A DNA stretch of 64,000 bases from Deltaproteobacteria bacterium (lineage in GTDB: Bacteria; UBA10199; DSSB01; JACPFA01). Under the pieces are notes generated by a model. That model saw only the letters and a program-made list of their open reading frames with translations, was not told the DNA's origin and did not search any database. Positions 5,235 to 48,909 of this stretch are shown piece by piece. The stretch spans positions 62,001 through 126,000 of the forward strand of contig JACPFA010000033.1 in NCBI GenBank assembly GCA_016183235.1, written 5' to 3'. A program made the translations under genes and the position numbers. The stretch's first letter is position 1, and each line of letters starts with the position of its first letter.

Positions 5235-5416
5235 ATTACTAACCAGTCGGCCGTATGGGCTACAGCTTACTTCGGTTTATGGGCTGCGACTGTGTCAGAT
5301 TTCACAAAAAGTGCTCGACGTAGCTATGGCTACGCCTCCGCGCTTTTTGTTCATCTTCCTTGTCTCACTCCATAACCCTCGCAATCTGTAGCCCATACGA
5401 CCGACTGGTTAGTAAT
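5235..5416. repeat. Palindromic element P-A copy 1 between convergent genes
   Basis: Arms 5235-5265 and 5386-5416 (31 bp) are reverse complements with one mismatch. The core 5266-5385 is shared with 48759-48881: both contain TTCGG, TATGG, CTGCGACT, CTCGACGTAGC, GGCTACGCCTCCG, CTTCCTTGTCTC and CATAA in the same order. The outer arms of the two copies are unrelated in sequence. It starts one base after the stop codon of the propeller lipoprotein and its right arm contains the stop codon of the methyltransferase, so it may end both transcripts. Confidence 0.85.
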
Positions 5417-6575
5417 CATTTTTTATAACCTTAAGAAAAAGATTAAAGCCTAATTCTTCTGCTAGGATTTCCGGTTTGGAATCTGCTGGGGCCAGAGCAG
5501 CTAGTTCTTCGCGAGTGCGAAAATTCAACGGCCATTCATTCACATACCATTGAAAGATTTTAGTCGTTTCTGCTGGGCAAAGATTACCTACTAACAATAC
5601 CCCCTTAGGATTCAACATCGAATACAATACTTGTAAGAGCATTTTGGAAAGATTGTCATCGAGATAATCAAACAGCCCTGAACTAATAATTAAATCTTGG
5701 CCGTTCAATTGCCCCATGGTTTCGGGATCTGATAACATTTTTTGAATGGGCTGGTTAAAAAATGCAAATCGGGTACGGCGTTGGTATTGTTCTTGTAAAT
5801 TGCGCAACCGATGTTGCAGCCTCTCAATGGCATCGGTGTCTTGGTCGAGAAAAAAGGCCTCTACCTGATTACTCTCGGGGGTTGTCATAAAGTGTTGGAA
5901 CGGAATCGAAGGCCCACAGGCTAAATCTAACACACGCACGGTATCTTTGGATTTTAGCGCCGCTTGTATGGTTGCCACTAAAACATCATACATAACTTTA
6001 AGCCGATTTTTGACCGGAGCCCCCGAAGGTGAAGTCACACTGAAGCGATGGCAGCATTTTTCAAACAAAGTTTTACCCACATAAACATTATCATCACAAA
6101 GCATTTCCATCATGATAAAATCGCCAGCATAACCATGGGGTTTGAGAATAGCACGGGTGGAAAAGGCTGAACAAAAAGTGACAAATCCTAAAAGTTGTTC
6201 TTGAAAATAGGTTTTGTAAATAAAGTGCTCTGCTGGAGAAAGCCCTTGGCACAAGGGCTCCATAAGTTTGGCGTAGTGATTGATATCGTCTACAATTTTA
6301 TCGCCATAAATCGTCAGCAGCTCTTTTTCCATTTTGGTTTTTATTTCATAAGGGGCATTGGCCAAAATCTTTTCTTCGGCATCGAGCAGGCGTTGATAAT
6401 GACTCAAACAATAACGAAGATCGGCCACGTGAAGGCGAAATTCTGGTTTGATTTTCTCAGGATCAACTACTTGTTTAAGAAATTTTTCAGCTCGATCGCG
6501 AGTATCTTGTAACTCGGTTTCTTTGAGTTGATTATAAATGGCCTTTGATTGTTGAAGGTAATAATGGTCGTACAC
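5409..6575 (-). CDS. Class I SAM-dependent methyltransferase with N-terminal helical domain
   Basis: 388 residues, probably from a GTG start. The C-terminal half is a Rossmann methyltransferase: motif I VLDLACGPSIPF, an acidic FFLDQD after it, and ISSGLFDYL further on. The middle has KPHGYAGDFIMMEML and LFEKCCHRF...VKNR, which match my memory of proteins annotated as extracellular-factor (3-hydroxypalmitate methyl ester) biosynthesis, PhcB-like. The N-terminal 150 residues are helical and unassigned. Substrate is unknown. The gene stands alone and its last codons run into palindrome P-A copy 1. Confidence 0.7.
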   Translation of the reverse strand: MYDHYYLQQSKAIYNQLKETELQDTRDRAEKFLKQVVDPEKIKPEFRLHVADLRYCLSHYQRLLDAEEKILANAPYEIKTKMEKELLTIYGDKIVDDINHYAKLMEPLCQGLSPAEHFIYKTYFQEQLLGFVTFCSAFSTRAILKPHGYAGDFIMMEMLCDDNVYVGKTLFEKCCHRFSVTSPSGAPVKNRLKVMYDVLVATIQAALKSKDTVRVLDLACGPSIPFQHFMTTPESNQVEAFFLDQDTDAIERLQHRLRNLQEQYQRRTRFAFFNQPIQKMLSDPETMGQLNGQDLIISSGLFDYLDDNLSKMLLQVLYSMLNPKGVLLVGNLCPAETTKIFQWYVNEWPLNFRTREELAALAPADSKPEILAEELGFNLFLKVIKNDY

Positions 6576-6612
6576 CGAATAGGCATAATTTAAACAAAGT
6601 TACGGGTCAAGA

Positions 6613-6647
6613 GGCCTTCTTTAGTTTTGTGGCCTTCTTTAGTTTGT
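6613..6647. repeat. Short tandem direct repeat upstream of tatA
   Basis: Two adjacent copies of GGCCTTCTTTAGTTT(T)GT at 6613-6630 and 6631-6647, differing by one T. They lie between the methyltransferase start and tatA. No function is evident. Confidence 0.6.
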
Positions 6648-6717
6648 GGTAGGTTGAAAGATCACATTTGTCCCATTGTGTTCTGAACCCATTTGCTGTA
6701 AAAGAATTTCCTGCCCT

Positions 6718-6945
6718 ATGTTTGGCTTAAGTTCCCCAGAATTGATGGTCGTTTTGTTGGTTGCGCTAATTTTTATTGGCCCTAAACAACTCCCTGAATT
6801 GGGAAAAAGACTGGGCCACCTCATGCGTGCCTGGCGCTCCACCAAAACAGAAATAGAATTGCAAATTAAAGATTCTATGAACCCTGCCGATAAACCTAAC
6901 CTCAAACCCCCTCCGGCCGATAAGCCCCATGAACCAAAACCCTGA
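6718..6945 (+). CDS. tatA: Sec-independent protein translocase TatA/TatB family
   Basis: 75 residues from ATG 6718. An in-frame start exists at 6676, but MFGLSSPELMVVLLVALIF is the family's usual N-terminus, so the later one is chosen. One membrane segment, the IGPKQLPELGKRLG hinge with its conserved Gly-Pro, an amphipathic helix, and a short Pro/Lys tail. It forms the twin-arginine pore with TatC. Length is between typical TatA and TatB, so which of the two it serves as, or both, is open. It overlaps tatC by 17 nt, pointing to coupled translation. Confidence 0.85.
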   Translation: MFGLSSPELMVVLLVALIFIGPKQLPELGKRLGHLMRAWRSTKTEIELQIKDSMNPADKPNLKPPPADKPHEPKP

Positions 6946-7660
6946 ATCCACTTTAATCCAACATTTAGTCGAACTGCGCCGTCGCTTAATCTCGGCTCTG
7001 CTTGGTTGGCTAGTGGGTATTGGAATTTGTCTTTATTTTTCTAAAGAAATCTTTGGGTATTTAAGCCTTCCCTTAAAAAAGGTTCTGCCCGAAGGTTCCC
7101 ACTTCATAGCCACCCACCCCATTGAAGCCTGGACTACTTATTTTAAAGCCTCGCTCTTGGCAGGTTTCTTTTTAAGCTCACCCTTTTTATTTTACCAATT
7201 GTGGAAATTCGTAGCGCCCGGGTTACTAGCCAAAGAAAAAAAAGTCACTCTAGGGTTTGTCATCACCTCGTCTGTCTTTTTTATTGGAGGTTCGCTTTTT
7301 GGTTATCATTATATTTTTCCCATCACCTTCCAATATTTTTCGGGGTTATTTTCAGGAACCGACATTTTACTTTTGCCCCGAATGGCGGATTATTTTTCAC
7401 TGGCAGCCCAAATGTTACTGGCCTTTGGTTTGATTTTCGAATTGCCTTTATTGATTTATTTCTTAGCTTCTTCAGGGATTGTATCTTTCAAAACCCTCTG
7501 GGGGTTTCAACGCTACTTAATCGTCGTTGCCTTCATCATAGGCGCCATCCTCACCCCACCCGATGTGCTTTCTCAAACCTTACTCTCAATCCCCATCATC
7601 CTACTTTATCAAGTAGGCCTGTTAGGCGCATGGTTTCATCGTAAAAAAATCCCAAAATAA
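6929..7660 (+). CDS. tatC: Twin-arginine translocase subunit TatC
   Basis: 243 residues, polytopic, with the N-terminal HLVELRRRL motif and the LAGFFLSSPFLFYQLWKFVAPGL region that hold the TatC signal-recognition residues; about six membrane segments. It is the receptor for folded, cofactor-bearing proteins with RR signal peptides. Overlap with tatA shows an operon. The stop is followed after 10 nt by palindrome P-C copy 1, across which cysN is transcribed in the opposite direction. Confidence 0.95.
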   Translation: MNQNPESTLIQHLVELRRRLISALLGWLVGIGICLYFSKEIFGYLSLPLKKVLPEGSHFIATHPIEAWTTYFKASLLAGFFLSSPFLFYQLWKFVAPGLLAKEKKVTLGFVITSSVFFIGGSLFGYHYIFPITFQYFSGLFSGTDILLLPRMADYFSLAAQMLLAFGLIFELPLLIYFLASSGIVSFKTLWGFQRYLIVVAFIIGAILTPPDVLSQTLLSIPIILLYQVGLLGAWFHRKKIPK

Positions 7661-7670
7661 AATTTATCTG

Positions 7671-7905
7671 GTCTCCCCTAATTTGCAGCCAACCCCTACT
7701 GAAGAGACCCGGCGCTCCATCGCCGACCCTCATATGGGTCTGTCCGGCATGGACTTTCTGTCATTGCGAGCCCAACGGGCGTGGCAATCTCACCGGTTAA
7801 ACCGAGGGGATTGCTTCGTCGCAGACTCCTCGCAATGACAGAAGGGGCCCCGGCGATTCCGCGATGGGTCTCTTCAGTAGGGGTTGGCTGCAAATTAGGG
7901 GAGAC
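7671..7905. repeat. Palindromic element P-C copy 1 with nested TGTCATTGCGAG element
   Basis: Perfect 40-bp arms at 7671-7710 and 7866-7905. Inside them is a core shared with 47735-47883 (GGCGCTCCA, CGACCCT, TCCGCGATGG), and at its centre a second palindrome (R1) at 7759-7840 beginning TGTCATTGCGAG and ending CTCGCAATGACA. The outer arm sequence is unlike that of the other P-C copy. It lies between the convergent tatC and cysN; the right arm touches the cysN stop codon. Confidence 0.9.
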
Positions 7906-9143
7906 TATTTAATTATGCCGGCGGCAACGGTGTTGTTGGTGAGTTCATCAATGAGAATGAAATTCCCGGTGTTGCGATTATACGCATAGGGATCGTAGAC
8001 CAGGGGTTTGAGTGTCTTGATTTGCACGCCCGCAATTTCGTTGAGATGCAATTCGGTTGCCGGTTGTTTTTCTAAGGTATGGATATCGACCCGATGATCC
8101 AGAGCCTTCACCATGGCTTTCGTCAGCAAGGTTCCATGTTTGATTGAATATTTTTTTTGAAGTTGAAGAGGTGCCTCAGCCATCCAACATAGGGTTGCCG
8201 AAAAATCGGTGGATACTTGAGGTGCTTTTTTTGTGTCGGCCAACGTGTCCCCACGACTAATGTCAATTTCATCTTCTAGGGTGAGGGTAATAGATTGAGG
8301 GCAGAAGGCTTCTTGCCAAGAGCCTTGGAAGGTATCAATCGATTTAACTTTCGATTGACGACCCGAAGGCAACACCTGTATTGCTTGGCCTACCTTTACC
8401 ACTCCGCTTGCAATTTGCCCAGCATAGCCCCGATAATCTAAATGAGGGCGAACGACATACTGCACTGCCATACGAAAATCTTTTAAATTGCGGTCGTGTT
8501 CAACCTCGATATTTTCTAAAATATCTAAAATAGTTTCTCCTGAGTACCAAGGTGCCAAGTCACTACGCCGTACAATATTGTCACCCTTGAGGGCAGAAAT
8601 GGGGATAAACCGTAAATCTTTTAATTGAAAAGTTTGGGCAAAATCTTTAAATTCTTGGACAATGGCGTCGAAGCGCTCTTGTTTCCAATCCACCAAATCC
8701 ATTTTATTGATACACACTAAAACATGCTTGATACCCAATAGATTGGCAATGTAGGCATGGCGCCGGGATTGAGGCAACAAACCTTTACGGGCATCGACCA
8801 AAATCATCGAAAGATTAGCGGTTGACGCACCTGTGACCATATTGCGGGTGTATTGTTCATGCCCTGGGGTATCGGCAATAATAAATTTGCGTTTGTCGGT
8901 GGAAAAATAGCGATAGGCCACATCAATCGTAATTCCCTGTTCTCGTTCGGCACGCAGCCCGTCGGTGAGCAGTGCCAAATTAACACGTTCTTCTTGTTTA
9001 CGTTGGGCGGTTTTTTCAATAGCTGAAAGTTGGTCTTCGTAAACTTGATGGGCATCATACAGCAAACGGCCAATCAGCGTTGATTTGCCGTCATCAACAC
9101 TCCCGGCAGTGGTAAAACGTAAAATGGATTTTTCTTCCATCAT
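7905..9143 (-). CDS. cysN: Sulfate adenylyltransferase subunit 1 (GTPase)
   Basis: 412 residues, EF-Tu-like GTPase: G1 GSVDDGKST, switch II DTPGHEQYTRN, G4 NKMD, then two beta-barrel domains. Couples GTP hydrolysis to APS formation from ATP and sulfate by CysD. The length is that of CysN alone, with no APS kinase (CysC) domain fused. It starts directly after the cysD stop with no gap, and its own stop touches a palindrome. No APS/PAPS reductase gene is in the window, so whether this feeds assimilation or sulfation cannot be told. Confidence 0.95.
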   Translation of the reverse strand: MMEEKSILRFTTAGSVDDGKSTLIGRLLYDAHQVYEDQLSAIEKTAQRKQEERVNLALLTDGLRAEREQGITIDVAYRYFSTDKRKFIIADTPGHEQYTRNMVTGASTANLSMILVDARKGLLPQSRRHAYIANLLGIKHVLVCINKMDLVDWKQERFDAIVQEFKDFAQTFQLKDLRFIPISALKGDNIVRRSDLAPWYSGETILDILENIEVEHDRNLKDFRMAVQYVVRPHLDYRGYAGQIASGVVKVGQAIQVLPSGRQSKVKSIDTFQGSWQEAFCPQSITLTLEDEIDISRGDTLADTKKAPQVSTDFSATLCWMAEAPLQLQKKYSIKHGTLLTKAMVKALDHRVDIHTLEKQPATELHLNEIAGVQIKTLKPLVYDPYAYNRNTGNFILIDELTNNTVAAGIIK

Positions 9144-10046
9144 TTAAAAATACCCTTCTTTTTTCTTCTCTTCCATCGATGAATCCGAGCCATGGTCAAT
9201 TACGCGATTTTCTCGTTCGGAACGTTTGTGATGAAAAGTTTCATCGACAATTTCTTGCAAGGTTGTGGCCGTGGAGCGAATCGCCCCCGTACAAGGGGTG
9301 CAACCGAGCGAGCGATAGCGACAAACAATTTTTTCAATTTTATCTCCCGGTCGTGGGGGATTTTTTTCGGTCAGTGGTAAAATCATTTCCCCACGAACAA
9401 TCACTTCTCGTTCTTTAGCAAAATACAGTGGCACCACGGGGATTTTTTCCACCATGATGTAATGCCAAATATCGGCCTCTGTCCAATTGGAGAGCGGAAA
9501 CACGCGAATCGATTGCCCTGGATTAATTTGCGCGTTGTAAAGGTTCCACAATTCGGGGCGCTGATTTTTAGGGTCCCATTGCCCAAATTCATCGCGAAAA
9601 GAATAAATTCTTTCTTTGGCCCGTGATTTTTCTTCTTCACGCCGGGCCCCACCAAAAGCCGCATCAAAACCATATTTACTCAAAGCCTGAAGCAACCCCG
9701 TAGTTTTTAAGGCCCCACAACATTTGTCAGTACCATATTGCCAAGGGTTCATATTCCCAGCAATGGCACTTTCGTTGCGCTCAACAATGAGATTAGCCCC
9801 AATACTTTTAATAAATTGATCCCGAAATTCATACATTTCGGGGAATTTATAACCCGTATCGATGTGCATGAGTGGAAAGGGAATTTTGCCCGGATAAAAA
9901 GCCTTGAGGGCCAAGCGCACCATCACACTAGAATCTTTACCCACCGAATAAAGCATGACCGGGTTTTTAAACTCGGCCACTACCTCACGGATAATATGAA
10001 TGCTTTCCGATTCTAATTCTTCTAAATGAGTTAAATGATGAGTCAT
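9144..10046 (-). CDS. cysD: Sulfate adenylyltransferase subunit 2
   Basis: 300 residues, PP-loop (N-type ATP pyrophosphatase) family: [12 protein letters not shown] loop, [34 protein letters not shown] and a Cys-containing [13 protein letters not shown], all typical of CysD. It makes adenosine 5'-phosphosulfate together with CysN, which follows immediately in the same operon. Confidence 0.96.
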
Positions 10047-10069
10047 AATTTATCAGCAAGCCTCAAAAG

Positions 10070-10192
10070 GGGGCCTCTAAAAAGGGCCCAGATGCAAGGC
10101 GCCCGCAAAGACGCGACCGGAGCGTATATGGAAATACGTGAGGATCGCGGCTTTGCGGGCAACGCTGCAGATGGGTCCTTTTTAGAGGCCCC
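10070..10192. repeat. Palindromic element P-B copy 1
   Basis: Arms at about 10070-10085 (GGGGCCTCTAAAAAGG) and 10177-10192 pair completely. The core has AGATGCAAGGC on the left and CAACGCTGCAGATGG on the right and matches the element inside RNase P RNA at 48326-48452 in order and length. Where the two copies differ in the stem both sides differ, so pairing is kept. It ends one base before the hpf stop codon and lies between hpf and cysD. Confidence 0.85.
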
Positions 10193-10513
10193 TTAGGCTG
10201 ATTTAATGGAACCATTGTGCCGCCGCTGCGATACCCTCAGGTCATGATCTTTGCGCAGCTGCATTTCTAATTTATGCACGGCTAGATCAATGGATTTATA
10301 CATGTCGTCGGACAATTCCGTGCTCGTATAATCCTTGCGATTGGCATGAAATTCAATCTTACATTGAAAACTCTGTTTTTTCCCAACCACCGCAAGATAA
10401 ACATGGGCATTATCCGGATCGGCAAACTTGGTAAGGTGACCCATAACGCCTTCAATATGATTTTCAATAGCTTCGGTTCTTTCTACATCGTGAAAATGAA
10501 TCTGAATTTGCAT
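10193..10513 (-). CDS. hpf: Ribosome hibernation promoting factor / sigma-54 modulation protein
   Basis: 106 residues from the ATG at 10513, chosen because AGGAG stands 6-7 nt upstream; an in-frame start at 10537 would precede that site. Short HPF/YfiA type: MQIQIHFHDVERTEAIENHI at the N-terminus, the beta-strand CKIEFHANRKD, and a helix ending in KLEMQLRKDHD. Binds the 30S decoding region in resting cells. It lacks the long C-terminal dimerisation domain. The stop codon is adjacent to palindrome P-B copy 1. Confidence 0.88.
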   Translation of the reverse strand: MQIQIHFHDVERTEAIENHIEGVMGHLTKFADPDNAHVYLAVVGKKQSFQCKIEFHANRKDYTSTELSDDMYKSIDLAVHKLEMQLRKDHDLRVSQRRHNGSIKSA

Positions 10514-10580
10514 TAAACACTCCTCATCGTCAAACAACGAATTCTGTTATGCTTATGGTTGGGATGAAATGTCAAGCCCA

Positions 10581-11966
10581 TCAGAAATCGGAGAGAGAAA
10601 TCCAAAAGATCGCCTGGCCAGCATCATCGATAACCATCAATTTCCCCGCACTTTCATCGATGACTAAACGCGCTGGATCAATGGCCTGCGTGCTCACCGA
10701 AGACGAAGCTGCTGCAGATTGCGCTGGGCTATATTTATAAACAACTCCATCTGTGCCTAACATATAAAGATCAGTGCAACTGCTACGATCCCCACAAACA
10801 ATATCCACGGCTAAAACAGAGTCCGGCAATGTTAATTCATTAAAACCAAAATTCGAATCAAAATAACCAGGGATTGAATCGGAGATGCGAATTCCTAAAG
10901 GCCGCTTCACTGCACTTGCGCCCACCACTTGACCAGCCGAAAAGGCACGATATTGGGCGGGCACACTATTAGTACTACCATTGATTAATTGGGTGTCTTC
11001 AAACATAACCAACTCCATTGTCCCATCGGTTGCACCAACATAAACAAACCAACCTTCATTACCAAAGGTTGCAAGACCTAAAATAGAATCTACGTCGATA
11101 TTTGAAACCTGGTCACTCTCCGTCGGATAAGCCGTGCTAATCAGATACTTTATTAACTCAACAAAGTCAGTGCCCGCACATAACAAAAGATAATCTGTAG
11201 GATCAGCGCCACTAGCACCAGGGCTATCGATACGCACATATTTTAGTGAGGCATTGGTACATTGACTACCCTGAGAACTGGTTAAAGCTGAAGCTGATCG
11301 ATTAATTTTATGCAGCTTATTATTCGCATAGTCTGTAACCAAGATAACATCGTCTTTAGCGGTTGCACTCGTTAATTCCATGGTAGAATCATTGATGATC
11401 GAAACAAGATCAAACGTCGATTCTAAAGACGTGCCGGTATTACTAAAAACTTTCAGCGTATATTGATCGCTTAAATCTTTCCCTAAAAGGTAGCTGCGAT
11501 TATTTTCTTCATCTACATACACATCAATAATTTGCGATAACTTATGGGCAAAGGCGTCATCCGGCACCGTAATACTGCCGCAGCTGGCGCTGGTACCCGC
11601 ACTGGTGGTTTGCCGAATACAAAGGATATCACCCGCATCGGCCGTAATGGAACAAGCAAATGAACCATCACTTTCTGCGGTATCGCAAAATTGACTGGCA
11701 TAGGCGGTTGAAGACAAAATCTGTTGCCATGGGATGATCGAGCTCGTGCCATCTTGCACCTCGATGGTAACCTCAGCCCCACCTTCCACGGCCCCGGCCT
11801 CGCCCACCACATACACACTGCCACTGCCATCGGGTGTCACCGTAATATTAGCCACGGTTGGCGCTGGAATAGAAACCGGCGGTGCTGCAGAACCACAATT
11901 GCTGAGGATTAAAAATAGACTAAAAAGAAAGGCGGCGCGTAGGAGGCGCAAATTGCTTGGGAACAT
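10581..11966 (-). CDS. Secreted lipoprotein with Ig-like and propeller-like repeats, function unknown
   Basis: 461 residues from ATG 11966, which has GAGGG upstream; a TTG at 11993 is less likely. The leader ends LILSNC, a plausible lipobox. Residues about 35-110 look like an immunoglobulin-type beta-sandwich (VYVVGEAGAVEGGAEVTIEV), with four Cys (QFCDTAESDGSFACS, LCIRQ, ASCGS) that may form disulfides. The rest has repeated strands such as VYVDEENNRSYLLGKD and LYMLGTDGVVYKYSP, like a beta-propeller. No enzyme motif is seen. It is transcribed alone. Confidence 0.7.
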   Translation of the reverse strand: MFPSNLRLLRAAFLFSLFLILSNCGSAAPPVSIPAPTVANITVTPDGSGSVYVVGEAGAVEGGAEVTIEVQDGTSSIIPWQQILSSTAYASQFCDTAESDGSFACSITADAGDILCIRQTTSAGTSASCGSITVPDDAFAHKLSQIIDVYVDEENNRSYLLGKDLSDQYTLKVFSNTGTSLESTFDLVSIINDSTMELTSATAKDDVILVTDYANNKLHKINRSASALTSSQGSQCTNASLKYVRIDSPGASGADPTDYLLLCAGTDFVELIKYLISTAYPTESDQVSNIDVDSILGLATFGNEGWFVYVGATDGTMELVMFEDTQLINGSTNSVPAQYRAFSAGQVVGASAVKRPLGIRISDSIPGYFDSNFGFNELTLPDSVLAVDIVCGDRSSCTDLYMLGTDGVVYKYSPAQSAAASSSVSTQAIDPARLVIDESAGKLMVIDDAGQAIFWISLSDF

Positions 11967-12077
11967 GAAAAAGCCCTCAATGGATCGTATCAACTAGACA
12001 CCTCTAACCTTATGCAGGTTAAAGAGCCACTATACTATCCTTTTGGTGCCCCTACGAGAAAATTTAGAAGACTCACT

Positions 12078-12160
12078 TGTCATTGCGAGGCCAGCCGGCC
12101 GAAGCAATCCCCTCGGTTAGGCAGAAGAGATTGCTTCACCCTGCTGGGTTCGCAATGACA
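12078..12160. repeat. Solo R1 palindromic repeat (TGTCATTGCGAG type)
   Basis: Begins TGTCATTGCGAG, ends CGCAATGACA, with an inner GAAGCAATC/GATTGCTTC pair. It is the same type as the elements nested in P-C copy 1 and P-D copy 2, but here it stands alone in the 417-nt gap between a lipoprotein and the sigma-54 regulator. Confidence 0.8.
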
Positions 12161-12196
12161 GAAACCCTAACACAACTACTATAAAAAAAATTTAAA

Positions 12197-12267
12197 GCTC
12201 AATCAATGGTTATCTCATCAAAAAAATCTTAGAACTTAAACGAGATAACCATTGGTTATCCTTGAGC
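12197..12267. promoter_or_regulatory. Imperfect inverted repeat upstream of the kinase/sigma-54 regulator
   Basis: The left arm 12197-12216 and right arm 12242-12267 are complementary (GCTCAA, AATGGTTATCTC and complements), the right arm having 8 extra bases that repeat GGTTATC. It lies 117 nt before the regulator's start, followed by a very AT-rich stretch at 12305-12365. It could be an operator or a transcript hairpin; nothing decides between them. Confidence 0.45.
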
Positions 12268-12383
12268 TTCCCCTTTTCCCCTATCCAAAAAATCGATGCT
12301 GTTAAATAATTTATATATATAATATTTTTACAAAGAACCGCTTTAACTATATAATCAAGTGCCTACTTAATAGAAATTATCGA

Positions 12384-17273: not shown

Positions 17274-17276
17274 CCT

Positions 17277-17307: not shown

Positions 17308-17309
17308 TC

Positions 17310-30464: not shown

Positions 30465-30651
30465 AAAAGTTTTACTGAAGTCGGCAGAGGCTTCCAGGGG
30501 TCCGTGTCGTCCGGCGGTTACGGCCGCCGGACGCACTCAAAGTCTCAGCTTTCACGGCTATATAGCCATAGTGGTGAAAGCTGGAGTTTACCCTGAGCGA
30601 AGCGACAGGGACAAACCCCTTCCAGCCTCAGCCAACTTCAGTAAAACTTTT
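30465..30651. repeat. Palindromic element P-E downstream of rsmA
   Basis: Arms 30465-30500 and 30616-30651 (36 bp, pairing with a few mismatches). The interior has three further hairpins: CCGGCGG/CCGCCGG near 30510-30530, AGCTTTCAC/GTGAAAGCT around 30547-30583, and CCCTG/CAGGG around 30590-30610. Single copy here. It begins 34 nt after the rsmA stop. Confidence 0.8.
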
Positions 30652-30677
30652 CATATTTCTCAAATATTTGAAGAGAA

Positions 30678-30850
30678 GTCTTTTCGAGGTAGGGAGAGGT
30701 CAAGGGAGAGCCTTTTAGCGCAGAAGGTCGGATCCAACGCATGCGCCTCAGGACAGGCTCCGGAGGGCGTCTGTCCCTCGCAATGACAGATGCCCTCATA
30801 GGCCGACCGGGCGCGGGCTCTCCATTGGCCTCTCCCTACCTCGAAAAGAC
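30678..30850. repeat. Palindromic element P-D copy 1
   Basis: Arms 30678-30712 and 30816-30850 (35 bp, three mismatches). The core shares GAGAGCCTTTTAGCGCAG, CCTCAGGACAGGCTCCGG and CCGACCGGGCGCGGGCTC with P-D copy 2 at 47941-48215. At its centre only a stub of R1 remains (TCTGTC and CTCGCAATGACAGA), where copy 2 carries a whole R1. Confidence 0.85.
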
Positions 30851-40230: not shown

Positions 40231-40285
40231 TGCCTGGCTTATCAGAAATTATTGAAATAATTAGAAAAATGGCTATACTTCCACC

Positions 40286-40392: not shown

Positions 40393-40518
40393 AATTATCT
40401 AGCTGGCTTTATCATGATTTGTTAGATCGATCAATGCTAGCCACATCGTCTCTTTAAAAGAGGGCTTTGTTTTAAGTCCGCTTGATTCGATGTTGGTTAG
40501 GCTTTAGGGTTAAACCCA

Positions 40519-41163: not shown

Positions 41164-41954
41164 ATTGCCAAGAATTCGAAGCAAAAATTGAAGATTTATT
41201 CTTAGGCGAACTCTCCGGTAGCGAAGAAGATCGCATGGAAAATCATATTGCCGAATGCAGCCATTGCGAAGATTTGTGGATGGAACATCGAGAGATTCAA
41301 AAAGGCATTCAAGCCCTGGCCGAATTGGAGCGCCCCAGTGGCATAACCACGGCTAACATTTTAAAAGCCGCTAACGATCAAATCACTCGAAAAAAATTTG
41401 TGTTAGCTAGATTTTTATTAACTTTTACTCGGCCGGCTTACGCGGGTTTATTTGCCTTAGTACTCACCGCAGGTCTTGGGATCTTTGCCCATCACTTGGG
41501 GATTTTTTCTTCGCACAAACAAAATGAAATCATGCTACCTCATATGCCCGCCTCTTCGGTAAAAGAACTCCCCACTACACCTACTACCCCACCTAAACAA
41601 AATGTGAGTGCCCCTGAGCCTGATAAAGATAGAATAGTAAAAAGAGACGAAAAAGATTTAGAGGTCGTCCCTGTTACAACAGGCACGATTACCCCTTCTG
41701 TTCCTGTAGAACACGCCCTCGATGAAAAACCGAAGGCACAGCAAGAAGCCCAAAAAATAACCAATACCAGTGCACCTGCAGGGCTTGGTGTTGTCACAGA
41801 CCACTTTGCAGAACAAACCGATGATCCACAATACCTTCAGGCCATTGACGATATCGACAAGGGAAATTGCAAACGCGCAAAAAAGACTTTAAAAAAACTT
41901 TTACAAAAAAACGCCCGCCCCGAATACGAACAAGCCCTTAAAAAATGTCAGTAG
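41160..41954 (+). CDS. Zinc-finger anti-sigma factor with periplasmic extension
   Basis: 264 residues. The N-terminal zf-HC2 domain shows MNCQEFEAKIEDLFLGELS and HIAECSHCEDLW (HxxxCxxC zinc site), which holds the ECF sigma factor. One membrane helix around 95-115 (AGLFALVLTAGLGIFAHHL), a Pro/Thr-rich spacer, and a C-terminal alpha-helical piece with DDPQYLQAIDDIDKGNCKRAKKTLKKLL, like one TPR unit. So it would sense envelope events and release the sigma factor encoded upstream. Confidence 0.9.
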   Translation: MNCQEFEAKIEDLFLGELSGSEEDRMENHIAECSHCEDLWMEHREIQKGIQALAELERPSGITTANILKAANDQITRKKFVLARFLLTFTRPAYAGLFALVLTAGLGIFAHHLGIFSSHKQNEIMLPHMPASSVKELPTTPTTPPKQNVSAPEPDKDRIVKRDEKDLEVVPVTTGTITPSVPVEHALDEKPKAQQEAQKITNTSAPAGLGVVTDHFAEQTDDPQYLQAIDDIDKGNCKRAKKTLKKLLQKNARPEYEQALKKCQ

Positions 41955-42024
41955 CTTAAAAAAACCAGTTTCATATTTCATTTGACTTTTACTATAGTAT
42001 TTTAACTTTTTGATAGTATATTTT

Positions 42025-42103
42025 CTGTCATCCTCGCGAAGGCGGGGATCCAGTTCTGTAAGTAGGGTTAGGCACTGGATCCCCGCCTTCGCGGGGATGA
42101 CAG
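42025..42103. repeat. REP-type palindrome downstream of the anti-sigma gene
   Basis: CTGTCATCCTCGCGAAGG and GGATCCAG on the left mirror CTGGATCC and CCTTCGCGGGGATGACAG on the right, spaced by about 22 nt. Common class of proteobacterial interspersed palindrome. It could end the sigma/anti-sigma transcript. Confidence 0.85.
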
Positions 42104-42157
42104 CCTATTTAAAAATTGAAACACTATATTATTCTGACATTTATTGAACCTTTATCG

Positions 42158-42541
42158 TTATGCCCTATTATTTTTGGGGGCTCTATCTTCAAACACTTTT
42201 TTGGCATTTAATTTGGCTAATTCTTGAAAATCATAAAAAAATATTTTTCCATTGCCTTGAAGATTCCAAATCGCAAAAGACCGCTGAAATTTATTCTTAA
42301 TACATTTTTTGTAAACAACCCAACCCACAACCATAAGGAGAATTAAAACTATAGCTGCAATACGCAACCCCATAATTATAAATAATAAAAATTCTGAACC
42401 TAGAATTATAAGGATTAAACTAGAAAAAATTGTAAGATAAACATGCGACTTAATCCTTTGATCTTCATAACTATCATACGTATCTATATATATACGATGA
42501 GTTCGGCTTAAACTCAGCCAATTTACATAATTCATCTTCAT
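42158..42541 (-). CDS. Membrane protein fragment, 3' part of a probably split gene
   Basis: 127 codons with two hydrophobic segments (FSSLILIILGSEFLLFIIMGL, AAIVLILLMVVGWVVY) and a charged C-terminal tail. No known family. It overlaps the upstream fragment by 68 nt in another frame. The overlap contains a TATATATATA run (42485-42494); a slip there would join ...NSSYIY to IDTYDSYEDQ and give a single membrane protein of about 240 residues. The first residues before that run are probably not native. The sequence is more AT-rich than its surroundings, suggesting recent acquisition. Confidence 0.5.
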   Translation of the reverse strand: MKMNYVNWLSLSRTHRIYIDTYDSYEDQRIKSHVYLTIFSSLILIILGSEFLLFIIMGLRIAAIVLILLMVVGWVVYKKCIKNKFQRSFAIWNLQGNGKIFFYDFQELAKLNAKKVFEDRAPKNNRA

Positions 42542-42866
42542 TCTCTGGTAATTTACCGTAGATTTTATTCAAAAATGTATAAAAGGCTTCATTTAGTAAA
42601 AAAACTCCTAAGACTGAAAGAAGCCAAAACCATACAAATAAAACGATTTGGGAAAAATCGTTAGTATTTTGATTAATCCATGCACTTTGTTTCAACCATT
42701 GATGCAAATTTGAGCAATATGTGCTGCCAACAAAATATGTACTCACAACAAATAAACCACCTAAAAAGGTGTATAATTCATCTCTTTTCAAGGTTCCTGT
42801 TGGTAAAGTAATCATGTTTTTCAGGCCTACCACGTAACCAAGGTAAACTGAACCATTTTTGATCAA
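42474..42866 (-). CDS. Membrane protein fragment, 5' part of a probably split gene
   Basis: 130 codons from a TTG at 42866, or about 113 from ATG 42815. Two hydrophobic stretches (TFLGGLFVVSTYFVGSTY, IVLFVWFWLLSVLGVFLL), then ENEDELCKLAEFKPNSSYIYRYV and a stop within the TA-run region where the next frame takes over. Unknown family; together with the following fragment it may be a small integral membrane protein of the accessory region. Divergent from the HTH antitoxin gene. Confidence 0.5.
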   Translation of the reverse strand: MIKNGSVYLGYVVGLKNMITLPTGTLKRDELYTFLGGLFVVSTYFVGSTYCSNLHQWLKQSAWINQNTNDFSQIVLFVWFWLLSVLGVFLLNEAFYTFLNKIYGKLPENEDELCKLAEFKPNSSYIYRYV

Positions 42867-42975
42867 CTCAAAACACTCATGATTTGTAAAAAAATTTTAC
42901 ATTTCTATTGACAAATTATTTTACATTTATTACTATACTGTTTCACTTAAAGAATATGAGGGCGATTTTTAAATT

Positions 42976-43767
42976 ATGCTCGCAAAATTTATTCGAGAAC
43001 AACGCAAAAAGCATAATCTAACTCAGGAGTTTTTAGCTTCTAAGCTAGGGATTTCTCGTCCAACCTATATGCAGGTTGAGCTTGGGGAAAGACCCTTAAA
43101 GATTCCTGAAGCTGAAAAATTGGCAGAGCTGTTTGATATTCCCATGGAAAATTTTTTACATGCTAAAGGCCACTCTGTTTCGGTCGAAATTGAAAAACAA
43201 AAGAAGCGAGCAAAACCAGAAAAAGACACTATACGTATTAGCATTCCACAGGAGCGGGTTGATAAATTCAAACAAGTTTTGTTCTACATTCTTAAAAAAG
43301 TGGGGGGCAAGCCTAATGTTGGCATGACAGTATTATACAAACTTCTTTACTTCATTGATTTTGACTATTACGAAAAATACGAAGAGCAGCTCATGGGGCT
43401 GGTTTACCTTAAGCATCATCATGGCCCTACCCCACTTTTATTTGAAGATCTCATTATTGAGATGGTTAAAAGTAGTGATGTGGAAATCATAAAAAGCAAG
43501 TTCTATAAATACCCCCAAACCAAATACCTTCTTAATCCAAATGTTGAACCCGATTTAAGCATCTTAAATGGTCAAGAAAAAGAACTCATTGATTGGGAGT
43601 TGCAACGACTTTCTGATTTAACGGCCAATCAGTTATCCGATCTCTCTCACAAGGATGTCCCTTGGCTCAGCACAGAAACTGGCAAGCCTCTTGATTACGA
43701 ATCAGTTTTTTATCGCACTGCCGAAACCAGCATACGGAATTATGACCACACAGACAACGCGGATTGA
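42976..43767 (+). CDS. HTH + Panacea (DUF4065/SocA-like) antitoxin
   Basis: 263 residues. XRE-type HTH at 1-65 (FIREQRKKHNLTQEFLASKLGISRPTYMQVELGER). Residues about 95-255 carry the Panacea fold features: KPNVGMTVLYKLLYFIDFDYYEKYEEQLMG, YLKHHHGPTP and LSHKDVPWLSTETGKPLDYESVFYR. PanA-type antitoxins neutralise many unrelated toxins; an HTH-fused form probably represses its own promoter. It overlaps the RelE-like gene by 26 nt, the usual antitoxin-first order. AT-rich DNA points to horizontal gain. Confidence 0.85.
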   Translation: MLAKFIREQRKKHNLTQEFLASKLGISRPTYMQVELGERPLKIPEAEKLAELFDIPMENFLHAKGHSVSVEIEKQKKRAKPEKDTIRISIPQERVDKFKQVLFYILKKVGGKPNVGMTVLYKLLYFIDFDYYEKYEEQLMGLVYLKHHHGPTPLLFEDLIIEMVKSSDVEIIKSKFYKYPQTKYLLNPNVEPDLSILNGQEKELIDWELQRLSDLTANQLSDLSHKDVPWLSTETGKPLDYESVFYRTAETSIRNYDHTDNAD

Positions 43768-44131
43768 ATATGGCGAAACTGACTCGTTCCGCAAAGATCT
43801 AAAAAGACTTCTTAAGAAATACCGAACTCTTGAAGAAGATTTAAAAACAGTCAAACGATCTGCAATTGAGCTTTATCATCTTAATAAGATAGATTCTCGT
43901 AGCATTTTTCCAATTCCTGGATTCTGCACCAAAGAAATTCAAATATGTAAAATTAAAAAATTTACCTGCAAGGCATTGAAGGGAAAAGGCGCGCAAAGTG
44001 GAATTAGAATTATTTATGCTTTTCATACTACAATTTCTAAAGTTGTCTTTATTGAAATGTATTTTAAGGCTGACCAAGAGAATGAGAATACCCTACGCAT
44101 TAACGAATATTTGAAAACAAATAACCTTTAG
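43742..44131 (+). CDS. RelE/ParE-superfamily-like toxin
   Basis: 129 residues from the ATG at 43742, which overlaps the antitoxin's end. RelE-like pattern: ETDSFRKDLKRLLKKY at the N-terminus, a central basic strand region CKIKKFTCKALKGKGAQSGIRIIYAF, and the terminal strand KVVFIEMYFKADQENENTLRINEYL. Expected to act on translation (ribosome-dependent mRNA cleavage) or gyrase; the sequence does not decide. The 3' end overlaps the convergent deaminase gene by 4 nt. Confidence 0.78.
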   Translation: MTTQTTRIEYGETDSFRKDLKRLLKKYRTLEEDLKTVKRSAIELYHLNKIDSRSIFPIPGFCTKEIQICKIKKFTCKALKGKGAQSGIRIIYAFHTTISKVVFIEMYFKADQENENTLRINEYLKTNNL

Positions 44132-45120
44132 ATTTGCCTAACAGAAATTTTGGCTTCTTTGAGGAGTTCGACTGATTTTTCGCCTAAAGGATAATTGGCG
44201 TTATAGATCACCTCAATGATACCCGAATTAATGATCATCTTGGTGCAAGTAAGGCAAGGCGAAAAGGTGGTGTAAATCGAGGCGTCTTTGATGGCTACCC
44301 CATGATAGGCCGACTGAGTAATGGCATTTTCTTCGGCATGAGAACAAACACATTCATCTAAATTTTTGCCCGAACCTGAGAAACTATGACAACGCGGGCA
44401 CCCGCCCTCGTTACAATTGGTGATGCCACGGGGCGTGCCGTTATAACCCGTTGAAATGATCCGTTTGTCTTTTACCAACACGGCGGCTACTTTGCGTTTG
44501 AGACAATTGCTGCGCATGGCTACCGTGCGAGCGATCTCCATAAAATATTCATCCCAGGTGGGCCGGGGTTGGGCTTTTAACAAGGTCAAAACCAAAGGCC
44601 TCACTTTTTCTCGCAGCTCTTCTAAAGTGCCATTATTTTCAATTTCGACATCTCGCATTTTGGCCACTAAATCTAATTGCTGGGCGTTGGGGTCAGCATT
44701 AGCTGCCTCACGTTGTTCTAAACTTTTGAAGGCCTCTAACGTGGTGGGGTCGCCTTCGCGTGCCCGTGTTTTAATGCGCTCGAAGCGGGCCGCAGGCAAT
44801 GCGGTGATATGGAATAATTTAAAAGTAGGTTCACGCCGCAACACCCGAACTTCTTCAGGGTTGCGAATCGAATCAATCACGTAATTTTTATCGCTATCGA
44901 GCTTGGCCATGGTCTTTTCGGCCAATACGCCAGGCCCGCCAAGTTTACGCAGTTCATTGCCAATTTTGATTAAATTTTCTCGCAACACAGCTTCTTTTCG
45001 ATTGGTTAATTCGTCGCGCAGGACATCGGAGAGCGAAAAATAAATAAACCCATTTTCTTTTAAAACGGCGGCCACTTCACCCTTACCCGCCCCGTTCTTT
45101 CCCGTTAAGCCAATGATCAT
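44128..45120 (-). CDS. NMP-kinase-like / dCMP deaminase fusion
   Basis: 330 residues from ATG 45120 (AAGG upstream). N-terminal P-loop domain GLTGKNGAGKGEVAAVL with a dephospho-CoA-kinase/nucleotide-kinase character (FSLSDVLRDELTNRK, VIDSIRNPEEVRVLRR). C-terminal cytidine/deoxycytidylate deaminase domain: GYNGTPRGITNCNEGGC, CSHAEENAI (zinc His and catalytic Glu) and FSPCLTCTKMI (zinc Cys pair). It should convert dCMP to dUMP for dTTP synthesis. Proteins with a P-loop domain plus a deoxycytidine deaminase also occur in antiphage dCTP depletion, and this one lies beside a toxin-antitoxin pair, so both roles are open. Confidence 0.85.
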   Translation of the reverse strand: MIIGLTGKNGAGKGEVAAVLKENGFIYFSLSDVLRDELTNRKEAVLRENLIKIGNELRKLGGPGVLAEKTMAKLDSDKNYVIDSIRNPEEVRVLRREPTFKLFHITALPAARFERIKTRAREGDPTTLEAFKSLEQREAANADPNAQQLDLVAKMRDVEIENNGTLEELREKVRPLVLTLLKAQPRPTWDEYFMEIARTVAMRSNCLKRKVAAVLVKDKRIISTGYNGTPRGITNCNEGGCPRCHSFSGSGKNLDECVCSHAEENAITQSAYHGVAIKDASIYTTFSPCLTCTKMIINSGIIEVIYNANYPLGEKSVELLKEAKISVRQI

Positions 45121-45164
45121 GTCAAAAACCTTACACGGCCCTAAAAAGAGTGTCAAATTAAAGA

Positions 45165-45215
45165 AGTAATTTTTGAGTGACAGGAGGTATCCTCGGCTGT
45201 CACTCAAGAATTACT
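45165..45215. terminator. Long hairpin between two minus-strand genes
   Basis: Arms 45165-45183 (AGTAATTTTTGAGTGACAG) and 45197-45215 pair with one mismatch around a 13-nt loop. The right arm contains the stop codon of the YHYH-like gene and the hairpin sits between it and the deaminase start, so it could terminate or attenuate. Confidence 0.7.
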
Positions 45216-46146
45216 ATTGTAACTCCATCTTCAACTGACAATGCTTTTCTTTGCGTTTTTCTACACTGTAGCGTTTACAATATAATTCTAATTTATCTTG
45301 TTTAATTTTCTTGCGCTTGGGCGCTTTAACCGTCCCATAACAAAATTGCTCTACACGGTTGTAATAAGGGTCCATACCCAAAACCGTTCCATCTTTCATA
45401 ATCCGCAAGACTTGGTAAATTTCAAAGGGGGATTCTTTTTTAGCAAGATAATAAAGATTTTGTTTATCGGTGCTAAACGGGGTTGACTTGTAACGACGCA
45501 AAATTTTTCTGTCTTGCGGGGTTGGATTTTGTTTCATGTTTTCTAAACCCATGGTTTCAATTTTGCGTTCATAATCTTGAAAAGAAATGAGCTCTGCCTC
45601 ATTGAATGAAAATCCACAGGTATTTTTCTTAACGACGTATTTACCAGGATGAGTGTTAGGGTAATTTTCTAAATGGAGATCATGGGTATAAAGCCCAACG
45701 AAATATTTGCGATAGCGTTCGTAACGTTCTTTATAACTACTCGTGGCTGAGAAAATAACCGCACCCAAAATAATGGCCCCCAAAACAATAGCGGCTGCAG
45801 CTAATTCAGCCTCGGGATCGTGGCCATGGCCATAACCTCCATAATAATAAGAATCATAAGAATGATAGTGATGAGTCGTAACCGTGCTATTACTTGAATA
45901 CCCTAGAGTGCCGGCCCCACATTGATAGCTACTATGTACCACCGGGGCAGGATGAGCTTTGCCTTTAAACTCGTGACAATGCAGAATGCCTTTTTCAACC
46001 CCTGACCAACAATTGCAATCTTCTTCACAAATATGGCAACCATAAGCATCGGTTTCACCTGGATGCGAAACAGCTTGCCCTATTGGAGTTATCACCAATA
46101 AAAAAACCATCCCATAAAGACAGATTTTTTTTGGAAACATATTCAT
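45214..46146 (-). CDS. Secreted YHYH-like domain protein with a membrane segment
   Basis: 310 residues. Signal peptide to about QAVS, then HPGETDAYGCHICEEDCNCWSG...GILHCHEFKGKAHP, a Cys/His-rich motif as in YHYH-domain secreted proteins. A His/Tyr/Gly-rich segment follows (HHYHSYDSYYYGGYGHGHD), then a hydrophobic helix LAAAAIVLGAIILGAVIF and a basic C-terminal domain with more Cys (CGFSFNEAEL, FCYGT, LYCKRY). Metal binding is likely; function unknown. The first Met (46146) or MFPKK two codons later can be the start. Confidence 0.65.
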   Translation of the reverse strand: MNMFPKKICLYGMVFLLVITPIGQAVSHPGETDAYGCHICEEDCNCWSGVEKGILHCHEFKGKAHPAPVVHSSYQCGAGTLGYSSNSTVTTHHYHSYDSYYYGGYGHGHDPEAELAAAAIVLGAIILGAVIFSATSSYKERYERYRKYFVGLYTHDLHLENYPNTHPGKYVVKKNTCGFSFNEAELISFQDYERKIETMGLENMKQNPTPQDRKILRRYKSTPFSTDKQNLYYLAKKESPFEIYQVLRIMKDGTVLGMDPYYNRVEQFCYGTVKAPKRKKIKQDKLELYCKRYSVEKRKEKHCQLKMELQ

Positions 46147-46282
46147 TCCCCCTTGAGTTAGAAATTTTAGCCTATTCCATCAAATTTTCACACCTCATTT
46201 TAGAGACTTAAAGCACCCAAATTGCGACTTGCATTTTTCATAAATCAGACTATTTAGGGGGTGGTTTAAAAAAGGAGCGCCA

Positions 46283-46978
46283 TTGAAAGATCAAATTGAA
46301 AAGCTAATAAGTTACGGTAAGTTGGATTTTGAAATCCACGAAATTCAGTCTCAATTAGAAGATATTCCACAAAATTTAAGGCTTTTAGAAGAAACCTGGC
46401 AACAGGCCAAACTTGCTTATGATACACAAAATACCCTCTTAGTCGAAAAAGAAACCCTATTACATTCTCTACAACAAGAATTCGCCACCGACCGAGATAA
46501 AACCAACGAAAAAGAGGCCCGGCTTCATCAAATTAAGACCCAAAAAGAATTTCAAGCCATCACCAAAGAAATTGCCGATACCAAGCGCATCAACCATGAA
46601 AAAGAAACCAAGATCAATCAATTGACTCAAGAGGTAGAACCGCTCAAAACTGTGGTTGCCGAATTAAAAACCAAACTCGATGCGGCGTGGAGTACTTACA
46701 GCCAAGAAAAAGAATCTTTTAGTGAAATTCAAAATGAACTTAGCAACAAAATCACTGAAATCTTAGAGAAGAAGAGAGCTATTGAAATCAAACCGATGTT
46801 GTTAAGTAAATATGAGCGTATTTATAAAGTCCGCAAACCCGCTCTTTCACAAGTGGCATCAGGCAGTTGTAATGAATGCAATATACGTATTTCACCTCAG
46901 GTCATTAACTTAATGCATCTACAACCCGACTTATACACTTGCGCAAATTGTGGACGAATTTTATACTTGGCTCACTAA
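46283..46978 (+). CDS. Coiled-coil protein with C-terminal zinc ribbon (COG1579 type)
   Basis: 231 residues from a TTG start with GGAG at the right distance. About 165 residues of antiparallel coiled coil (IHEIQSQLEDIPQNLRLLEETW, RLHQIKTQKEFQAITKEIADTKR) lead to a C4 zinc ribbon, SGSCNECNIRISPQV...YTCANCGRILY. The family is widespread, its job unclear (links to flagella or RNA metabolism have been proposed). Operon with a small unknown gene and rnhA, and RNase P RNA follows; this neighbourhood recurs in other bacteria as far as I recall. Confidence 0.88.
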   Translation: MKDQIEKLISYGKLDFEIHEIQSQLEDIPQNLRLLEETWQQAKLAYDTQNTLLVEKETLLHSLQQEFATDRDKTNEKEARLHQIKTQKEFQAITKEIADTKRINHEKETKINQLTQEVEPLKTVVAELKTKLDAAWSTYSQEKESFSEIQNELSNKITEILEKKRAIEIKPMLLSKYERIYKVRKPALSQVASGSCNECNIRISPQVINLMHLQPDLYTCANCGRILYLAH

Positions 46979-46988
46979 AAGGTAAACT

Positions 46989-47273
46989 ATGAAAAAAATC
47001 CCCAAAGATGCTTTAGCAGAGCTTCTGATTTACATCGCTGAGCATGAAACCTTTGCTTCGCTCAAAGATTTCTCGAGTTTTAGGCCCGCCGAAGTGCGCT
47101 TTGCTTTAAAAGAATTGGCCATGCAACTGAAAAAAGAATTGCAAAGAGACGGGGTGAGCGGGGTTGATATTGCTAAATTAAAAGGGATTGATAAACGCAC
47201 CAAACAAATTCTCTCGGCACTATCCCCTCGCGAAAGCAAACTCCTCTTAAGAGCATTCTCCATCGATGGCTAA
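46989..47273 (+). CDS. Small conserved-looking helical protein, unknown
   Basis: 94 residues, AAGGTAAACT before the ATG. Mostly helical and basic: PKDALAELLIYIAEHETFAS, RPAEVRFALKELAMQLKKEL, KLKGIDKRTKQILSALSPRE. Overlaps rnhA by 8 nt, so it is translated as part of the same operon. The family is not recognised. The final segment resembles an interdomain helix of nucleic-acid-binding proteins, but that is weak. Confidence 0.65.
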   Translation: MKKIPKDALAELLIYIAEHETFASLKDFSSFRPAEVRFALKELAMQLKKELQRDGVSGVDIAKLKGIDKRTKQILSALSPRESKLLLRAFSIDG

Positions 47274-47682
47274 AAAACTCATCCTTTACGCCGATGGCGC
47301 CTCACGTGGTAACCCCGGCTTAGGGGGAGCAGGCGCGGTTCTTAAAGATAAAACCGGAAAAACTCTGGAAGAAATCACCTACTTTGTGGGCCAAGCGGTC
47401 ACCAACAATGTGGCTGAATATACCGCCTTGCTCGTAGGTCTAGAAAAGGCCTTGGAATTAGAGACAACCGAGATAGACATCTTTATGGATAGCGAATTAG
47501 TGGTGCGCCAAATTAAAGGTGAGTATCAAGTTAAGAACGAAAAACTTTTAGAGATTTTCGTTCAAGTTCAAAGGCTATTAAAAAAATTTTCTTCTTATAA
47601 AATCCAACACATCCCCCGCGAAAAAAACAAAGAAGCCGATCGCCTTTCCAACCAAGCCATTAACTTAAGAGACATGGCTTAA
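47266..47682 (+). CDS. rnhA: Ribonuclease HI
   Basis: 138 residues. The four acidic catalytic residues are visible: Asp in YADGASRGNPGLGG, Glu in NNVAEYTALLVGL, Asp in FMDSELVVRQIKGEY, and Asp in EKNKEADRLSNQA. Compact form without the N-terminal hybrid-binding domain. Removes RNA from RNA-DNA hybrids. Last gene of the zinc-ribbon operon; two large palindromes follow before RNase P RNA. Confidence 0.94.
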   Translation: MAKKLILYADGASRGNPGLGGAGAVLKDKTGKTLEEITYFVGQAVTNNVAEYTALLVGLEKALELETTEIDIFMDSELVVRQIKGEYQVKNEKLLEIFVQVQRLLKKFSSYKIQHIPREKNKEADRLSNQAINLRDMA

Positions 47683-47703
47683 ATCATTTGCAAATAGAGC
47701 CAC

Positions 47704-47914
47704 GTCTTTTCGGCGTCATTGTTGTGGTGAAGCCGGCGCTCCAGCGGCGACCCTTATGCGGATTTGCCGGCACGGAATCCTTCCGCGTTCCCCCATCATG
47801 GGTCCCTGCCTTCGCAGGGATGACATGGGCCTCGGCTTTCCATGCCGGCAAATCCGCATAGGGGGCCCCGCCGCTTCCGCGATGGCTTCACCACAACAAC
47901 GACCCCGAAAAGAC
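47704..47914. repeat. Palindromic element P-C copy 2
   Basis: Arms 47704-47734 and 47884-47914 (31 bp, two mismatches), sequence unlike the 40-bp arms of P-C copy 1. The core shares GGCGCTCCA, GCGACCCT, GGGGCCCCG and TTCCGCGATGG with copy 1. Where copy 1 holds R1 at the centre, this copy holds a different small palindrome, GGGTCCCTGCC/GCAGGGATGAC at about 47806-47827. It begins 21 nt after the rnhA stop. Confidence 0.88.
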
Positions 47915-47940
47915 TTTTCTGTAAATATTTGCAGAAATAT

Positions 47941-48215
47941 AAAAAGTTTTTCTGAGAGGGGCTAGAGGGTAACTTGAGAGCCTTTTAGCGCAGGAGGGCG
48001 GCTCCTTCGAGAAGCCTCAGGACAGGCTCCGGAGGGTATCTGTCATTGCGAGCCCAACGGGCGTGGCAATCTCACCGGTTAAACCGAGGAGATTGCTTCG
48101 TCCCCTCGACAGACTCGGGATAAACTCCGACTCCTCGCAATGACAGAAGCCCTCCTTAAGCCGACCGGGCGCGGGCTCTCAAGTTACCCTCTAGCCCCTC
48201 TCAGAAAAACTTTTT
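47941..48215. repeat. Palindromic element P-D copy 2 with nested complete R1
   Basis: Perfect 42-bp arms at 47941-47982 and 48174-48215. Core as in P-D copy 1; at the centre a complete R1 element at 48041-48145, nearly identical to the R1 nested in P-C copy 1 at 7759-7840 (shared TGTCATTGCGAGCCCAACGG, CTCACCGGTTAAACCGAG). 47683-48301 contains these palindromes and no credible gene. Confidence 0.9.
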
Positions 48216-48301
48216 AGGTACGGTAATTTGCAAATGAAATGGAAAAATGTCGTTTCAAAACCCGTATTGACTTTTGGATGACAATGCTCAAACCTAGATG
48301 C

Positions 48302-48730
48302 GAGGCAGAGAAAGAAGGTCGCTTTGGGGAGCCTCTGAAAAAGCTCCAGATGCAAGGCAGGCTGAGGAGGCCGACTGAGGCGTACTAACAAGTACGCCGC
48401 AGGGAGTGCCGACGAAGACAACGCAGCAGATGGACTTTTGCAGAGGCTCCCCCAGAGAGGAAAGTCCGGGCACCAGAAGAGCACCGTAGTGGGTAACACC
48501 CATCCTATTTGTCGAAAGACAGGTAGAGGACTAGTGCAACAGAAAGTATGTACGTCCGCTCGCGCGGAGCTGTAGTGAAATCAGGTAAACTCTACGGGGT
48601 GCAAAACCAAATAAGGAGTTGTTTCGCTCTTAACCATGACTCCGGGTAGGTTGCTTTATGACCCGCACAGTAATGTGTGTGGCAAGAGAAATGATCTTCC
48701 ACGACAGAACCCGGCTTATTTCTCTGCCTT
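48302..48730 (+). ncRNA. rnpB: RNase P RNA (class A) with a palindromic insertion at P3
   Basis: P1 is 48302-48313 paired with 48719-48730 (GAGGCAGAGAAA with TTTCTCTGCCTT). The conserved core is present: GAGGAAAGTCCGGGC at 48457-48471, CAGAAAGTATG near 48540, GGTAAACTC near 48585, and ACAGAACCCGGCTTA at 48704-48718. It is the catalytic RNA that matures tRNA 5' ends. The P3 region, a short hairpin in most bacteria, is replaced by about 127 nt matching palindrome P-B, which makes the gene about 429 nt. The core regions are intact, so it is judged functional. Confidence 0.95.
48326..48452. repeat. Palindromic element P-B copy 2 inside RNase P RNA
   Basis: GGGGAGCCTCTG (48326-48337) pairs with CAGAGGCTCCCC (48441-48452). 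The core has AGATGCAAGGC, a GGCGTAC/GTACGCC stem, and CAACGCAGCAGATGG, in the same order as P-B copy 1 at 10070-10192. It starts just after P2 (GGTCGC) and ends just before GAGGAAAGTCC, i.e. where P3 belongs. Confidence 0.88.
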
Positions 48731-48909
48731 ACTAAGGAGCCCCTAAGGTTCTACACATCTTGCTTCGGCTTATGGCCTGCGACTTCGTCAGGCTCGTCAA
48801 AAGTCCTCGACGTAGCGCTTTGGCTACGCCTCCGGGCTTTTGACTTCGCCTTCCTTGTCTCGGCTCATAATCCTATGCAATATGTGCAGAACCTTAGGGG
48901 CTCCTTAGT
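48731..48909. repeat. Palindromic element P-A copy 2, probable rnpB terminator
   Basis: Arms 48731-48758 and 48882-48909 (28 bp, one mismatch), directly against the last paired base of RNase P RNA and followed by eight T at 48912-48919. The core matches P-A copy 1 at 5266-5385; the arms do not. Confidence 0.85.

Follow-up and report, generated by a model that had tools for sequence, protein, structure and literature searches.

The window analysed here is a 64-kb stretch of contig C33 from a bacterial genome of 2.61 Mb (51 contigs, 98% complete). It encodes a large multihaem cytochrome with c3/c7 and MtrC/MtrF-like domains (1030-3900), the RNA gene rnpB (48415-48734), and a class II ribonucleotide reductase interrupted by a LAGLIDADG intein (49241-53524). 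Nine long palindromes, labelled P-A to P-E, are interspersed in this region. Two of them flank rnpB (48326-48909). The rnpB model match runs into the right arm of P-B2; the RNA may have its real 5' end elsewhere. A further short palindrome type, CTGTCATCCTCGCGAAGGCGGGGATCCAGT, lies at 42025-42103, has several copies in our genome sample, and presumably resembles the dRS3 repeats of Neisseria. The palindromic features of the window are as follows.

5235-5416: P-A1 palindrome with ATTACTAACCAGTCGG ends, occupying the whole gap between two convergent genes
7671-7905: P-C1 palindrome; 40 or more perfect outer pairs unique in the genome, core common to many copies
7760-7839: GTCATTGCGAG inverted doublet, a REPIN-like module at the apex of P-C1
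10070-10192: P-B1 palindrome, one among 40 or more copies with nearly constant arms
30465-30651: P-E, first hairpin of a double palindrome, T1 end type
30652-30677: conserved 26-nt linker between P-E and P-D1, with its own short palindrome (CTCAAATATTTGAAGAG)
30678-30850: P-D1, second hairpin of the double palindrome with P-E, T2 end type
47704-47914: P-C2, T2-type hairpin of the second double palindrome
47915-47939: conserved 25-nt linker between P-C2 and P-D2
47940-48216: P-D2, T1-type hairpin of the second double palindrome, 43 perfect arm pairs
48042-48144: GTCATTGCGAG inverted doublet, a REPIN-like module nested in the P-D2 apex
48326-48452: P-B2, diverged P-B-like palindrome directly upstream of rnpB, overlapping the rnpB model match
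48731-48909: P-A2 palindrome with ACTAAGGAG ends, immediately after rnpB
48740-48750: P-A2 hypervariable arm block, left arm (alignment columns 10-20)
48890-48900: P-A2 hypervariable arm block, right arm, the perfect complement of the left block

All nine palindromes claimed in an earlier note are real: they fold at the places given there, with energies of -69 to -177 kcal/mol, and are members of dispersed families. Inverted-repeat scans recovered eight of them as long arms; the weakest, P-B2 (48326-48452), was detected by folding only and missed by the arm scan. The perfect long outer stems reported at 7671 and 47941 were likewise borne out by the scans, with 40 or more perfect outer pairs at 7671-7905 and 43/43 perfect arm pairs at 47940-48216. 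Mononucleotide shuffles of six sources yielded no palindromes of such strength, as opposed to 18 in the real sequences. A 464-kb sample representing 18% of the genome contained 52 palindromes of at least 100 bp (11.2 per 100 kb). A set of 19 genomes from elsewhere in the class, all relatives from beyond its genus and family, had 8 in 690 kb, or about 1.2 per 100 kb. None of that length was present in 366 kb from ten genomes outside the class.

Searches of the organism's own genome returned about 30 copies of P-A in several subfamilies, 40 or more copies of P-B with nearly constant arms, 13 full-length copies of P-E with the same arms in most, and many copies of P-C/P-D. The proposal that a shared core is framed by locus-specific paired arms holds for P-A, P-C and P-D and fails for P-B and P-E, most of whose copies have the same arms. 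Identical outer arms genome-wide, named in the earlier note as the mark of simple MITEs, were accordingly found for the latter two families and not for the former three. To call the arms of those three "completely" different was nonetheless an overstatement, as the outermost motifs TACTAA, GTCTTTTCG and TAAAAAG are common to different copies (TACTAA to P-A1 and P-A2, GTCTTTTCG to P-C2 and P-D1, AAAAGTTTTnCTGA to P-D2 and P-E). The end types TAAAAAGTTTTACTGA, GTCTTTTCGAGG, GTAATGCTTCAGT and ACTAAGGAG recur in many copies; other outer arms, including those of P-C1, were seen once, as 30-48 perfect pairs around a shared core. The variable part of the arm is the block between the conserved ends and the conserved core. 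About a dozen P-B copies (e.g., L095, L099, L106, L115) share a one-sided 24-nt extension, CACCTCTAATAACTTGGATTTGGG, which resembles a second, broken copy of the end.

Real as they are, the nine palindromes are not all separate. P-E with P-D1, and P-C2 with P-D2, each form one double palindrome joined by a conserved linker of 25-28 nt, and the sequence outside both hairpins is also conserved. Among the loci examined, this layout occurs at 14 places, one with a 46-nt gap. The layers of the elements reassort: a single middle layer was found with at least five different outer arms around it, topped at its apex by either the GTCATTGCGAG doublet (REPIN-type) or an AT-rich palindrome. Elsewhere in the class, the P-A core lies inside P-B-like ends (GGGCACCTCTAAAAACT) or inside the ACTAAGGAG ends known from this genome. 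The end motif GGNACCTCTAAAAACT is present in 18 of 60 genomes, around cores differing in length.

Alignment of homologous copies showed how the arms change. In the T4 family (five copies, 48 arm pairs), 28 pairs were invariant and 20 had changed on both sides, with no one-sided change; the arms differ by 10-42% between copies. Pairing was retained in 239/240 alignment cells, while shuffles and slid pairings fell well below. In P-A (11 copies), 14/33 pairs had changed on both sides and again none on one side only. The covariation check suggested in the earlier note thus returned exclusively two-sided changes, and its conjecture of fast-drifting stems that stay paired is strongly supported, both by these two families and by the pairing across 133 distinct elements, in which 4156/4321 outer pairs were Watson-Crick. 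In the T1, T2 and P-A families, the two arms of an element differed 5 to 10 times less from each other than copies did among themselves.

The P-A changes cluster in an 11-bp block between the invariant ends and the inner part. Across the 21 closest pairs of copies, the block was 29% different, the inner part 3.5% and the ends 1.6%, an approximately eightfold faster pace of change for the block than for the inner part. Even between copies whose inner parts are 95-99% alike, block divergence can reach 55%, always with pairing intact. In one P-B copy (L114), the right arm matches the inverted left arm wherever a site is diagnostic, the single such case of arm overwriting. We also considered whether the target site might supply or guide the arm sequences and set this idea aside, as the T1, T2 and T4 blocks were unmatched in their own flanks; the P-A block gave a weak match to its own flanks, with 6/200 swaps scoring as high.

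Near-identical copies are located at unrelated sites, which makes dispersal clear. Most P-A copies have a TA at either boundary, an ambiguous sign of target-site duplication because TA is also the continuation of the palindrome. Long repeated DNA, a source of candidate insertion sequences, amounted to one 749-bp repeat in the 464-kb sample, and a plasmid collection held no P-B match. The same 464 kb contains 104 GTCATTGCGAG half-sites, with 34 inverted doublets and 39 unpaired; 33 of the 34 doublets span 69-119 bp and one spans 205 bp. The half-sites therefore occur mainly as spacing-limited inverted doublets, as expected of REPINs. On contig C16, a gene for a 166-aa Y1_Tnp protein that scores above the Pfam cut-off (L178:1456-1953) has GTCATTGCGAG half-sites on both sides in the same orientation, a RAYT-like arrangement, while the RAYT model NF047646 gives the protein 22 bits against a cut-off of 80. 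This was the sole intact Y1 gene found, and inspection of its locus revealed no P-A or P-B ends beside it. Only for the innermost, REPIN-like GTCATTGCGAG module do we suggest, tentatively and from this arrangement, a mobilising enzyme, namely the product of the Y1/RAYT-like gene. Integron attC sites were also considered and dropped because the end motifs do not fit R boxes.

How the outer arms and cores came together can be read in several ways. The second conjecture of the earlier note was that cores insert into the loop of existing stems, in which case mobile cores would have entered pre-existing hairpins such as terminators and the outer arms would be host stem. The middle layer housed in at least five outer arms and the exchange of apex modules within one stem fit this conjecture in part. 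So does the location of the elements: 21 of 46 sampled either sit no more than 15 nt from a gene 3' end or run slightly into it, against 2.6 in a crude null, figures that are approximate because genes were called by a simple codon-usage ORF scorer and the null handles overlaps differently from the observed count. However, the arms reach 40-51 perfect pairs, and ordinary terminator stems are far shorter. The P-A and T4 arms are homologous among copies and differ by paired substitutions, indicating that the arms travel with the core, and no stem without its core was found. We consider loop insertion unlikely as the general explanation. The 3'-end preference may itself reflect insertion tolerance at these positions or a terminator role.

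The same preference, along with the very stable folds and strong covariation, would be expected if the stems were functional RNAs (bidirectional terminators or stabilisers of mRNA 3' ends) in which selection preserves pairing by way of ordinary compensatory mutations. Structured RNAs tolerate G-U pairs as they covary, but the outer-pair mismatches of the 133 elements comprise 47 G-T and 44 A-C, with no G-T excess, which is unexpected under selection on an RNA stem, and T4 and P-A show no one-sided variants. Of the double changes, about half are of transversion type (19/34 in T4 and 21/46 in P-A), for which passage through G-U is impossible. Moreover, the 48-bp arms are near-perfect although a single mismatch would hardly weaken them, whereas the core retains conserved mismatches. 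We regard RNA-level selection as decidedly improbable. An equally doubtful account treats the elements as ordinary MITEs with several end subfamilies, so that every arm sequence would have its own transposon family behind it and serve as that family's terminal inverted repeat. The elements are indeed short, non-coding and dispersed with terminal inverted repeats; P-B and P-E, whose terminal repeats are constant within the core family, fit well, as does the GGNACCTCTAAAAACT motif around cores of varying length in those 18 of 60 genomes. The terminal repeats of P-A and T4 are not constant, and founders would carry fixed sequences rather than a block that diverges by up to 55%, always paired, around a P-A inner part 95-99% alike. 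No autonomous parent with P-B ends, the ends used for this search, was found in the organism's own genome or in 20 stretches of related genomes.

A possible reason for the persistence of such palindromes lies in the nuclease repertoire. SbcCD cuts palindrome-formed hairpins in E. coli (PMC4245961). The SbcD family model had no match in this genome and matched 2 of 45 other genomes of the class, one match being weak and the other in an assembly with 8% contamination; by comparison, it matched 10/14 genomes outside the class and 13/14 controls. The absence of SbcD is a plausible permissive condition for long palindromes. Relatives that also lack SbcD have far fewer palindromes, and thus its absence is neither sufficient nor the whole cause.

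The elements are dispersed, are built of modular layers, and change strictly in arm pairs without G-U intermediates. The explanation we favour, and consider probable, is that they are mobile palindromes of a non-autonomous, MITE/REPIN-like sort, in which self-templated copying rewrites the arms and the absence of SbcD allows this. Such palindromes would accumulate in intergenic DNA on a common plan: conserved short ends, then an arm block that is specific to each copy yet always paired, then a conserved imperfect core able to hold nested palindromes. The ends and core would stay fixed because the mobilising enzyme needs them. What maintains pairing would be the recopying of one arm from its partner, and not selection acting on RNA stems. 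Such recopying could proceed by intrastrand template switching, or by gene conversion within the hairpin, as the element is replicated or transposed, and the hairpins would persist for want of SbcCD. That template switching can preserve the pairing of hairpin arms is known (PMC8794818). From the exclusively two-sided changes, the similar numbers of G-T and A-C mismatches, the hypervariability of the block and the overwritten arm of L114, all patterns in aligned sequences, we infer arm-onto-arm copying at the DNA level. Copying alone does not explain the roughly eightfold faster change of the block, for which a local mutation source is also needed.

Perfect long stems with paired changes are usually taken as proof of functional RNA. 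The same signature without G-U intermediates, in dispersed DNA repeats, is more likely a record of DNA copying. Many copies of differing age form a natural dataset on which arm-to-arm copying can be measured, and the lack of detectable SbcD across the class provides a testable reason for the persistence of long palindromes. A more specific proposal, which we hold to be somewhat short of probable, is that mobile palindromes with a hypervariable block rewritten at or around transposition by arm-to-arm copying constitute a natural record of intra-palindrome template switching in a class lacking SbcCD.

Several known systems share part of this picture. Bacterial MITEs such as Correia/NEMIS, ERIC and RU elements are, like the elements here, short, non-autonomous, dispersed and mostly intergenic, with inverted terminal repeats. 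In our case, the terminal repeats vary within a core family, and a search with P-B ends found no parental transposase with the same ends. REPINs, with their RAYT/TnpA-REP transposases, are the closest known kind, being small, dispersed intergenic palindromes with conserved ends and a variable paired middle (PMC3116915, PMC8266576). The likeness extends to the GTCATTGCGAG module, which occurs as inverted doublets and whose half-sites flank a Y1 gene. Because REPINs already combine conserved ends with compensatory changes between them (PMC3116915), the earlier note's "distinct class of interspersed element" was too strong. Differences remain. At 120-480 bp, and with up to about 48 perfect arm pairs, P-A, P-B and the double palindromes exceed REPINs in length; they also have nested layers, two-hairpin units and, separating the conserved end from the conserved core, a fixed hypervariable block. 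A Y1 link is seen for the GTCATTGCGAG module and not for P-A, P-B or the double palindromes. The mitochondrial DHE of Allomyces and RHE of sponges are also mobile palindromes, sometimes two tandem hairpins, that spread in intergenic DNA, but they are much shorter and organellar; in sponge RHE, it is the loops that vary around conserved stems (PMC2800124), the reverse of our finding. Long perfect stems are further known from template-switch hairpins, maintained by instantaneous multi-base compensatory changes (PMC8794818), and from the perfect palindromes of nematomorph mitochondrial genes (PMC6649704). Those cases concern RNA genes and protein genes at fixed loci, whereas the palindromes described here form dispersed repeat families in a bacterium.
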